Positions 42,774 to 46,881 of a DNA stretch of 64,000 nucleotides are shown in pieces. Positions within the stretch are counted from its first letter, which is position 1. The number at the start of each line of letters is the position of its first letter. Where the stretch lies: assembly GCA_037355855.1 (NCBI GenBank), contig CM074759.1:496001-560000 (forward strand). The letters are read 5' to 3'. The position numbers and the translations under genes were made by a program. The notes under the pieces are model-generated. The model did not search any database. It saw only the letters and a program-made list of their open reading frames with translations, and was not told the DNA's origin. This DNA is from Pseudo-nitzschia pungens. Taxonomy: Eukaryota; Bacillariophyta; Bacillariophyceae; Bacillariales; Bacillariaceae.

Positions 42774-42776
42774 AAT

Positions 42777-42798
42777 GAGTGATTCCCGGAAGTACATA
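42777..42798 (+). repeat. Harbinger left terminal inverted repeat
   Basis: 22 bases identical to the reverse complement of 45839-45860. The 3-bp AAT duplication lies directly outside. Confidence 0.93.
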
Positions 42799-43109
42799 TC
42801 GACATAATACATATAAGCAATCCCGGAATGACATAACACATATAAAAATTGCGCGCCCAACGGAAAACCTAGATCTCCCTCAACGCACGAGGCCTATTTT
42901 GGAATTAGGAATCTTGGGAAAAGAAACAAAAAATTCCCTTTTAACTGTCAACCCGCGCCTCTATCGACTATTTTTTGCGCGCCAGCAATCTTGTGTTCTT
43001 CGAAATTTTGTCGAAGTTTGCAAATTTGCTATCCTCAACAACAGGGGGTAGTTTGGTCTCCAATAAAAAAAATTGTTGCTGCTCACTTTTTCTTTTCTTC
43101 TGACAAATC

Positions 43110-44288
43110 ATGTCGCTGGAGTTACTGTACTACTACTACTACGACAAGCACATAGCTGTCGATTACAATCGTCCAAGGCTATGTGACGAGGATAAAAAGA
43201 ACAGGGATCGGAGAACCCCACGGATTGCCATTCGAAGATATTCTTCTTCTCCATTCACCTACATGTTCCGATCCGGAGATAATCAAGCCCTTCTCAATTG
43301 CTGTGGGGTCAACCATCGGGTATTCAGAGAGCTGTTGTCCATCTTTGAGCCCTTCTATGAGATGTACACCTACGACGATCTAACTGGAACAGTAAGGAAG
43401 TACAAGACAAACAAGAACACAGGGCGGAAAAGAGAGTTTGATCCAGTTGGATGTCTTGGACTTGTCTTGTTTTGGTTCCGAACGCGTGGATCAGTGGCAA
43501 GGGGATTGAGTATGGCGTTCGGTCTAACTTCTACTCCCATGTACAAATGGCTGAAGTATGCCCGAAAGATACTACTTTGCGCTTTGCAAACTAATCCTGT
43601 TGCTGTTGTCAAATTGCCTTCCGAAGAACAAACTGAGTTGTACGTCGATGCTCTTGCTTCCAAGTACCCTGTCTTGCGTCCGCACAGAGTCTGGGCTGCT
43701 TGCGATGGGATTAAGCTCCCAATCCAAAGGTCTGGAAATTGGTCGAAACAGAACAAGTTTTATAATGGATGGACTGCTGGCACGTATGTTAACTGTGTGT
43801 TTGTCTTTTGCCCGGATGGTAAGATCCGGGCATGTACGTTGAACGCTCCAGGTTGTTGGCATGACAGCACTCAAGCTGACTATGGCATGTACAACAAGAT
43901 GGAGGAAATGTACGAACTGTATGGAGTGAAGATTGTGGTAGACTCAGCTTTCAACCTGGGAGCAAAAGACTATCTGATTAAGAGCAGTCAAACGAATCCG
44001 GACACGGCGGAAGGAATTGTTCTTAACCAAGCAGCGACGAGCTGTCGGCAGCTCTCTGAATGGGGCATGAGACAGATCCAAGGTGGCTTTCCCCGACTCA
44101 AGGACAACATGCTTCTAGAAGAGAATGGAGAGAGGAAGATCATCCTGAACCTCATGGTTCTTCTGTACAACTACCAAACTAGTAAAGTGCAGATTAATAC
44201 CATCCTGAACACGTTCATGAGCGAGACGAAGGGATTCTTCTCTTACGGCATGGTTCCGACTGCTACGGCCGATGGCGTCTTTGGTTGA
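43110..44288 (+). CDS. PIF/Harbinger DDE transposase (DDE_Tnp_4)
   Basis: Catalyses cut-and-paste movement of the element. The 392-aa protein has an N-terminal helix-turn-helix-like region (RKREFDPVGCLGLVLFWFRT, then VARGLSMAFGLTSTPMYKWL). The RNase-H-like core carries the DDE acids in the family's contexts: Asp199 in VWAACDGIKLPI, Asp278 in VKIVVDSAFNLG and Glu317 in CRQLSEWGMRQIQGGFPRLK. The strand between the first two (WTAGTYVNCVFVFCPDGKI, then GCWHDSTQ) is also typical. No stop or frameshift interrupts it and its length suits the family. The ATG at 43110 begins MSLELLYYYYYDK; a later start is possible. It needs the partner Myb-like protein for nuclear import or end binding in better studied members of the family. 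Confidence 0.93.
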   Translation: MSLELLYYYYYDKHIAVDYNRPRLCDEDKKNRDRRTPRIAIRRYSSSPFTYMFRSGDNQALLNCCGVNHRVFRELLSIFEPFYEMYTYDDLTGTVRKYKTNKNTGRKREFDPVGCLGLVLFWFRTRGSVARGLSMAFGLTSTPMYKWLKYARKILLCALQTNPVAVVKLPSEEQTELYVDALASKYPVLRPHRVWAACDGIKLPIQRSGNWSKQNKFYNGWTAGTYVNCVFVFCPDGKIRACTLNAPGCWHDSTQADYGMYNKMEEMYELYGVKIVVDSAFNLGAKDYLIKSSQTNPDTAEGIVLNQAATSCRQLSEWGMRQIQGGFPRLKDNMLLEENGERKIILNLMVLLYNYQTSKVQINTILNTFMSETKGFFSYGMVPTATADGVFG

Positions 44289-44460
44289 TAGTTCTTAAAA
44301 TAAACAAATTAAAATCAAAAAACTCTATCGAAAACATCTTTAAAACCCTTAACAGCAACAACAAAAAGCACACTCTTTCTCCTGACAGACAAATCGTCCG
44401 ATAGAGGTGCTGCAAAAAAAAAAACTATAAGTCGATTGAAATAAAAGTCGATCACTACTA

Positions 44461-45387
44461 CTAGTCACTGTCGCTGCTGCTGCTACTACTACTACTGCCG
44501 TCGTCAATTGCTGCTTCGGATCGATGGTTGCCGGTTACGGATCGACGACGCTTCTTGTTCCTCTTTCTTTTCTTTTGGCGTTGTGTTCCCTGGAAAGCGT
44601 TAACAGCGCCATTGATACAGGCTTGTAGTGCCTCCATCAACATCTTTCTGTCAGCTGTAGCTTGTTCGCAGACCTTAGTGATCGCGTCTCTTTGCGCGTC
44701 TTGGGAGTTCTTCATAGCTTCAAAGAATCGGTCATCTTTGTCTGCTTTCTTGACGTAAGATCTTTTTTTTGCTGGTGTTCTTGCAACAGCAGAAGAAGCA
44801 AATGTAGAGGTGGTTGAAGCGCTGGATCTAGATTGCGAACCAGGAGTCAACATTGGAGGTTGTTCATTGTCGAGCTGGGTGGGTTGCCCAAGTGGTAGAG
44901 TGTCACCATCACCACCAGCAGCGCCTTCCGGAGGAGCAGGAGTAACAAAGCATCCTTCTTCTAGGTCATAGATCTCTTCGCCGTTTCCAAGTTCAGCCTT
45001 CTGTCCAATCAAGTATTTGATAGCCTTTGCCTCCTTCACCTGCCAAGGACAATTTGGATCTCCAGTGGGGATACTTCTTCTGTGGCAACTGGCAAACTTT
45101 CTTCTGATGGATTCCACATCTCTTCCGGGGTAAAGAATCGAGTGTCTATCAGCGACTTCCTGCCACTCGTCAGGTCCAATTGGTAACACTTCCCTCATTA
45201 TAGAAAACAAGTTCCTCAGTTCGGGCTCGCCATAGTTGACTGAGCCGCTTTTCCTTCCACCATTTACACCTGGCATGGTGGTGGTGATGCTGATTGTTAT
45301 AGTGGATGGTATGTTTTGGTTCTTTCTCTCTGTTTCGAAGCGGGCGCTACTTTCTTCTTCGGACGTTTCGAATACTTCTTGCCGCAT
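44461..45387 (-). CDS. Harbinger-associated Myb/SANT-like DNA-binding protein
   Basis: Second gene of the transposon, 308 aa, convergent with the transposase. The DNA-binding region at about 50-130 has the Myb/SANT-like pattern with spaced tryptophans and basic helices: LRNLFSIMREVLPIGPDEWQ, then DVESIRRKFASCHRRSIPTG, then DPNCPWQVKEAKAIKYLIG. This block is typical of diatom and oomycete Myb-like proteins linked to Harbinger elements. The middle is Pro/Ser/Thr-rich. The C-terminal third is a helical, Lys/Asp-rich segment ending in KKRKRNKKRRR, a probable nuclear localisation signal, and a Ser/Asp tail. The ATG at 45387 gives MRQEVFETSEE; an internal ATG 37 codons later (MPGVNGG) is an alternative start. 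Confidence 0.85.
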   Translation of the reverse strand: MRQEVFETSEEESSARFETERKNQNIPSTITISITTTMPGVNGGRKSGSVNYGEPELRNLFSIMREVLPIGPDEWQEVADRHSILYPGRDVESIRRKFASCHRRSIPTGDPNCPWQVKEAKAIKYLIGQKAELGNGEEIYDLEEGCFVTPAPPEGAAGGDGDTLPLGQPTQLDNEQPPMLTPGSQSRSSASTTSTFASSAVARTPAKKRSYVKKADKDDRFFEAMKNSQDAQRDAITKVCEQATADRKMLMEALQACINGAVNAFQGTQRQKKRKRNKKRRRSVTGNHRSEAAIDDGSSSSSSSSDSD

Positions 45388-45430
45388 GCTGACTAAGAGA
45401 CGTTCTACGGGGGGTTACGGCAAGATAACA

Positions 45431-45574
45431 ATGGATGGCTGGGAAAGGACAACACCAGAGTCTGACGCTGCTGGTGGATCTTCGGTGTTTAGCAAATTGA
45501 AGTTCAAGCTGAAGAAAACAGCAACAGCAGCAACAACAAGGGATAGTTTGTACCTGAGCAAAGCAAGACTTTGA
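45431..45574 (+). CDS. Possible small third ORF of the Harbinger element
   Basis: A 47-codon frame from the ATG at 45431 lies between the Myb-like gene's start and the right inverted repeat, divergent from that gene. The product is hydrophilic at the front (MDGWERTTPESDAAGGSS) and then amphipathic and basic (VFSKLKFKLKKTATAAT). It resembles nothing I know. It may be chance sequence in the promoter of the Myb-like gene. Confidence 0.2.
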   Translation: MDGWERTTPESDAAGGSSVFSKLKFKLKKTATAATTRDSLYLSKARL

Positions 45575-45838
45575 GGTAAACCTACAGAGGTACGGTACAT
45601 GAAATTTTGTTCGACGAAAATGATCGCCAAAAGAAACACATCATGTGTCACAGGTTTGACATGCGTTGACATGCGTTGAGTGACTGAAATTTTTGATTCT
45701 TAGATTCCATCTAGGTTTATGTCGAATGGAAGTCGGACAGACGGCCCTTCCACTATATATGTGCTGAAAACCTAAATATATCTCCCTATGTTTTCAGGAA
45801 CGTTCCATTACATTTTCTAGGATACATAAGTAATGTGT

Positions 45839-45860
45839 TATGTACTTCCGGGAATCACTC
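45839..45860 (-). repeat. Harbinger right terminal inverted repeat
   Basis: 22 bases that are the exact reverse complement of 42777-42798, followed by the AAT duplication. Confidence 0.93.
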
Positions 45861-45863
45861 AAT

Positions 45864-46881
45864 AATGAAATTGAAAAAAAGTACGAAGTAACTTAAAATC
45901 TTCGTAAGGTTACGGGTTCGTAAGATCTTACGTCGTGCTTCGAATACAGTATCGTAGATCTTCGTAAACCGTCACGAGCGCGCTTGTACTTGTACGAGGA
46001 CTGTTACGTGAATCATGGGTCATTATTATTTTTTCTATTTTTTACTTCGTATTTTTTTTTTTGAAGAAGAACTACGATTACGGTACGTATTCCGTACGTT
46101 CTCGGAAAGGTAGAAAAATACCACCAGCCTAACTAGTGTCTAACCAGGCATAGAGAGTTTGTTGAGGAGAGTTTAACCCAAAAAGAACGGTTTGAATTGG
46201 TTGAAAATTGATCCCAAGTGCAAAGATTTTCGCTATATTGCCCAGTATTTCGGACCAGAGATAGTATTATTTTTCCGATTCCTGTGATCACCTCAGTCCC
46301 GGATTTGAGGATTAGCGTTTTACATAAGGCTCTCGAATGTGTTACTGGGAAGATAAGCCTTACCGTACAGTCCTAGCAAGAAGAACAAATGACACCATGA
46401 GTTGTACTGTAACAAAAAATAAAAGTAATTCTAATAATGCAGTCCTCACTGGAATCCAACGTGAAAGGAACGATTCAACTCGATCCCTCCTTGGCTATCC
46501 CGTTTATCTATTGACATTGAGTATCGATTCTGCATACTTGTACCAGTGGTGATCTTGTTGTTGCTGATTCTAAACCAGGGTTTCTGGCTCGGGCGGGTTG
46601 GCTTGGAGAAGTATCTTCTCGAATGACAACAACAAGTTGCTGCATCCTTTTCATCTCAATTGATAGTCGGAAAATCTATAGGGAACATAGATTATGTAAC
46701 AAATAGTATTACGTCTTAATTTCGTACGATGTCCTTTGCATATTGCTATCAAAATCATAGAGATGGCGAATGATTATCATTGTTTTGTTCTCTATTGTTA
46801 TTTCTATTCATATTGTTGTAGTAGTTTACATTTATTGGTCACAACCTATTGATTCTACGCCGTTGGCGTTCCCCGGCACCC
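45864..46881. other. Intergenic region
   Basis: About 1 kb between the transposon and the protease stop. GTAAGGTTAC and TAAGATCTTA words lie at 45903-45935. No gene seen. Confidence 0.6.

Follow-up and report, generated by a model that had tools for sequence, protein, structure and literature searches.

A 64,000-nucleotide stretch of the genome of Pseudo-nitzschia pungens (GCA_037355855.1, contig CM074759.1, positions 496,001 to 560,000), here called the window and numbered from its first letter, carries on its plus strand a structurally complete and correctly delimited two-gene DNA transposon of the PIF/Harbinger superfamily (42777..45860). By its target site and general anatomy, this element very probably fits the Pangu group of the PIF/Harbinger-ISL2EU-Spy (PHIS) superfamily, a group that PMC12730594 equates with Harbinger2 of Repbase.

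The element measures 3,084 bp, and its limits were set by its terminal inverted repeats (TIRs), by its target-site duplication and by copies sharing the same ends. Comparison of the ends gave a left TIR at 42777..42798 (plus strand) and a right TIR at 45839..45860 (minus strand), inverted-identical at 22 of 22 bases; the 23rd base (T/A) is part of the AAT flanks, which lie at 42774..42776 and 45861..45863 and were recognized from the sequence and from a survey of flanks. Inside are two open, convergent genes, one for a DDE_Tnp_4 transposase and one for a DUF6818 protein. Searching the genome (66.9 Mb, 28 contigs) for the end sequence with at most three mismatches yielded 144 occurrences and none for the reversed control, so the element is not a product of chance. 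A first-pass annotation of this DNA had proposed perfect 22-bp inverted ends at 42777 and 45860 with AAT on both sides, a delimitation that proved exact to the base. Copies with ends that do not coincide were sought; the copies examined, L002, L003, L044-L047 and L049-L051, share the same termini to within one base, each flanked by its own target duplication.

Matching 3-bp flanks were present in 43 of the 46 elements having both ends. Once four elements that share flanks with another copy had been removed, 39 distinct sites remained, with ATT found 20 times, AAT 18 times, ACT once, and TAA or TTA never; in the surrounding DNA, AWT (W, A or T) accounts for 5.5% of trinucleotides and TWA for 3.9%. 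With both strands counted, T or C stands before the target in 79% and A or G after it, giving YAWTR. The full-length relatives L095-L097 are also flanked by AAT. A 3-bp duplication agrees with a paralogous empty site, since the joined flanks of L049 (561 bp) align without a break to L079, where AAT stands once. The three elements without matching flanks are L005 (AAT/AGT), L086 (TGA/ATT) and L088 (AAT/ATT), and the unequal flanks of the last two may have arisen by recombination between copies. Because AWT occupies 38 of the 39 sites and ACT the other, the family fits Pangu and not the TWA-targeting Harbingers. AAT had previously been taken for a slightly atypical target of a TWA-type Harbinger; that view has to be given up, as AWT/ANT sites without TWA make AAT a diagnostic feature of the known Pangu group.

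The transposase gene (43110..44288, plus strand) was defined by an open frame, a profile match, a structural model and the ratio of non-synonymous to synonymous substitution (dN/dS). Its 392-residue product matches DDE_Tnp_4 (PF13359) at an E-value of 4e-12 and 46.4 bits (cut-off 24.8); allowing E-values as high as 1 brought up no further Pfam domain, and no NCBIfam transposase model matched. Sequence and alignment place the catalytic triad on the plus strand at D199 (GAT, 43704-43706), D278 (GAC, 43941-43943) and E317 (GAA, 44058-44060). When the window protein was aligned with 40 of the 120 homologues listed (337 were found), D278 was invariant among the 41 proteins and D199 and E317 were each conserved in at least 90%. 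The uninterrupted DDE transposase with these three residues that had been read from the sequence is thus upheld, its frame being open and its triad intact and conserved. An AlphaFold2 model (mean pLDDT, the predicted local distance difference test, 82.9) has a catalytic part that aligns to DDE transposases and integrases, and puts D199 within a strand, D278 immediately behind one and E317 on a long helix, an arrangement close to the one given for the PHIS superfamily by Han et al. (PMC4482050). A transcript-derived protein in MMETSP (P0001) aligns to 81% of the transposase at 82% identity.

The partner gene (44461..45387, minus strand), defined by an open frame, a profile match and dN/dS, encodes 308 residues and matches the DUF6818 profile (PF20681) at an E-value of 3e-10. 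The DUF6818 domain (residues 69-132; 44992..45183, minus strand) lies in a Myb-like fold predicted at about residues 46-130, and by this model it would fold like Myb DNA-binding domains. Further along, the predicted structure holds a long C-terminal helix (residues 217-282; 44542..44739, minus strand), possibly a coiled coil, with block pLDDT values of 92-94 for residues 221-260 and of 84 and 75 for residues 261-280. The partner had been described as an uninterrupted Myb/SANT protein: its frame is indeed open, but no Myb or SANT Pfam match was obtained at E up to 1, and its Myb-type character comes from the predicted fold only. A transcript-derived DUF6818 protein in MMETSP (P0123) is 42% identical over 72% of the partner.

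Across the genome, 40 of the 60 DUF6818 places have a DDE_Tnp_4 gene as neighbour (within 4 kb), and all 40 pairs are convergent; 1,000 shuffles averaged 0.54 such pairs and never gave more than 4. This close pairing and constant orientation link DUF6818 to transposition. DUF6818 is not named in the literature searched, PMC12477816 included. The pairing, which suggests a role for this domain of unknown function, is a modest new point about an element whose other features are mostly ordinary. A bolder idea, which we put forward tentatively and think doubtful, is that the ANT-targeting (Pangu) elements of stramenopiles characteristically carry DUF6818 as their second subunit, which would provide Myb-type recognition of ends and target and help to set AWT. 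If so, the 20 DUF6818 genes without a pair would include host-domesticated or trans-acting partners. These 20 places, which have no DDE_Tnp_4 within 4 kb, include G000:C6:1631078-1631296 and G000:C11:1954517-1954708, where the frames are open (330 and 402 residues); solo partners, decayed elements and domesticated genes are all candidates for what they are. Conversely, multi-copy DDE_Tnp_4 genes of the same or nearly the same score without DUF6818 within 4 kb represent other Harbinger-type families in this genome (G000:C7:1812186, C5:5556794, C5:5749463, C2:6348089, C6:3072286, C9:59007, C10:2360243 and C12:1583424).

Of 235 candidate copies of the window element 40 were scored, so repeat counts are lower bounds, and the nearest full-length relatives in this set are 90-92% identical. 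L002 and L003 (92%) have a broken transposase frame and a partner shortened to 225 residues; the two (C2:5536894-5542988 and C7:3124674-3130764) belong to a single segmental duplication with 99.5% identity across 4,970 bp. L004 (90%) keeps both frames open, but about 2.0 and 4.8 kb of other DNA interrupt it near the right end; in this split copy (L004/L094, C1:6484691-6494662) part of the interrupting DNA consists of tandem repeats. Counting the window's, four copies reach at least 90% identity along most of their length, and of these only the window copy retains joined ends together with both frames. More distant two-gene relatives with open frames are found at L005 and L043. In all six pairs formed by the window copy, L004, L005 and L043, dN/dS was 0.08-0.11 for the transposase and 0.18-0.35 for the partner, values that are rough where dS exceeds 1, as it does in several pairs. 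Both genes were therefore kept working while these lineages diverged.

A subterminal motif suggests how the partner protein might find the ends. At element position 45 (42821..42827, plus strand) the TIR core recurs as TCCCGGA, a candidate binding site picked out by motif counts, and the form TCCSGGA (S, C or G) stands at this position in four of eight full-length elements (the window's, L002, L005 and L042), recurring near the right end in L005 and L042. Across all eight, the 1,600 terminal bp contain it 16 times, the TIRs accounting for ten of these, and the 23,773 interior bp contain it once; the counts are not independent because the eight elements are related. L095-L097 lack the motif, their TIRs reading TTCCTGAA or TTCCCGAA; the repeat is a candidate binding site of the window subfamily only. 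The DUF6818 protein would bind the ends, that is the TIR and the repeated core, through its Myb-type domain and, possibly dimeric through its long C-terminal helix, would recruit the transposase. The transposase would then excise the element and insert it at A-W-T through a staggered cut of 3 bp, and gap filling would create the AWT duplication.

The same machinery may have acted on short derivatives. Fifty loci (L044-L093) were examined for short elements and 39 were kept, having both ends with at most three mismatches and a length under about 1 kb; 11 were left out. Twenty-nine of the derivatives measure 404-436 bp, six 560-566 bp and the other four 363, 384, 390 and 746 bp. In the class of about 405 bp, 16 of the 29 copies differ from the majority sequence (405 bp) by at most one substitution and 19 by at most three, the most divergent being L086 with 83. 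Flanks are shared within L059/L060, among the 29, and within L049/L050, among the six. L059 and L060 (C1) stand about 115 kb apart in opposite orientation, an inverted duplication of the surrounding DNA. At L092 (C11:1340919) a 363-bp copy is followed by ATT and then by another element end (GAGTGATTCCCG), an insertion beside or into the copy.

Which full-length elements moved these derivatives is a separate matter from the nature of the window element. One explanation, compatible with a complete Pangu-like transposon in the window, is that another subfamily, rather than the window copy, mobilized the 405-bp copies, and we lean towards it. L056 (405 bp) is 91-94% identical to L005/L042 over most of its ends and only about 83-84% identical to the window element where the two align; on the other side, the TIRs of the listed 405-bp copies differ from the window's at just one base of 22. 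Moreover, the window's own subfamily has moved derivatives, as L044 (566 bp) matches the window element at 98.5% over 194 bp on the left and 197 bp on the right. L049 and L050 match it at 90% on the left end and 95% on the right. Given the closeness of L056 to L005/L042 and of L044 to the window element, a sister subfamily like L005/L042 was probably behind the 405-bp burst and most likely supplied the proteins for those copies. By the same comparison of ends, the two proteins of the window element would have moved the less numerous 560-566-bp type in trans.

Recent movement had been proposed for the window copy on the strength of its identical ends and intact frames. For the wider family, recent movement is established, because the 405-bp copies are near-identical and because L095 and L096, which occupy unrelated sites, show 99.1% identity when only the element is compared. 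For the window copy itself the proposal fares less well. Identical TIRs were found in 35 of the 46 elements and, being this common in the family, are weak evidence of youth; nor can the insertion be dated from a sister copy, because the closest relative with both frames open, L004, is at a dS of 0.19-0.24. No paralogous empty site was found, and the flanks have no near-full-length match elsewhere in the genome. They do contain two segments, of 162 and 66 bp, that recur at other places; the longer one, an interspersed repeat in the right flank (window 46105-46266), is 82-98% identical at the 40 other places scored out of 187 candidates. No Rfam match was obtained in the window.

These observations bear on whether the pair is instead an old immobile relic or was domesticated by the host, its frames kept by chance or by host selection. 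The missing empty site and unmatched flanks count against a mobile element, as does the fact that the full-length relatives scored never exceed 92% and that all three at 90-92% are broken or interrupted. However, a relic or a domesticated pair would not be expected to combine identical TIRs with a matching AAT and two intact frames, the low dN/dS in both genes is common to four separate copies, and the near-identical derivatives and the L095/L096 pair reveal a mobile wider family. Immobility or domestication is, in our judgement, very unlikely.

We return to the window element as a complete Pangu-like transposon and to its place within PHIS. In PMC4482050 the groups of this superfamily are told apart by their target duplications: PIF/Harbinger has TWA, ISL2EU AT, NuwaI CWG, NuwaII C|TNA|G and Pangu ANT, while Spy makes none. 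The DDE_Tnp_4 transposase with its intact triad conforms to PHIS, and the ANT duplication at every one of the 39 distinct sites, together with two genes of which one encodes a DDE transposase without other domains, conforms to Pangu. ISL2EU was ruled out by the 3-bp duplication (it has the 2-bp AT) and by the lack of a YqaJ match, and Spy, which inserts at AAATTT with no duplication and has a single gene, by the 3-bp duplication and the two genes. A canonical TWA-targeting PIF/Harbinger, with AAT a chance atypical insertion, would share the superfamily, the DDE_Tnp_4 transposase, two genes and a 3-bp duplication, but the lack of a single TAA or TTA among the sites, and the fact that AWT never becomes TWA by shifting the boundary, make it the least credible reading, with hardly any chance of being right. 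The original label of Harbinger therefore stands for the superfamily and the two genes, and gives way to Pangu (Harbinger2)-like for the group.

Taken together, the full-length elements, near-identical derivatives and measured target make this a clear example, in a diatom-like genome, of a transposon group that has been little described. The diatom character of the genome shows in a host protein whose best relatives include Pseudo-nitzschia proteins. Canonical PIF/Harbinger elements are those named PIF, Ping/Pong and mPing, and the IS5 family is bacterial and is not known to carry a partner gene. With the canonical elements the window family shares a DDE transposase and a second protein (Myb/SANT in PMC4482050; here a predicted Myb-like fold) and short derivatives, there moved in trans (PMC2836001) and here presumably so, and differs from them in its target. 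With IS5 the ANT duplication is held in common, according to Han et al. (PMC4482050). Pangu, as described in the same paper, shares the 3-bp ANT duplication, the two genes and a DDE transposase without other reported domain; its autonomous elements average about 3.5 kb, and its hosts there include one heterokont among 15 genomes. Its TIRs are given as 11-40 bp, usually starting AG or GG, a range that includes our 22 bp, whereas the window TIR starts GA; the window family differs further in having A or T as the middle target base at 38 of 39 sites, and in a second gene that carries DUF6818. The second Pangu gene is stated two ways in PMC4482050, with no known motif in the Results and Myb/SANT in the Discussion, and the DUF6818 pairing bears on whether it is Myb-like. 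Likened by description only, the ANT-targeting Harbingers of the brown alga Ectocarpus, where all autonomous Harbingers are reported with two tail-to-tail genes (PMC12477816), have the same gene arrangement, the same ANT duplication and, like the window element, a stramenopile host.
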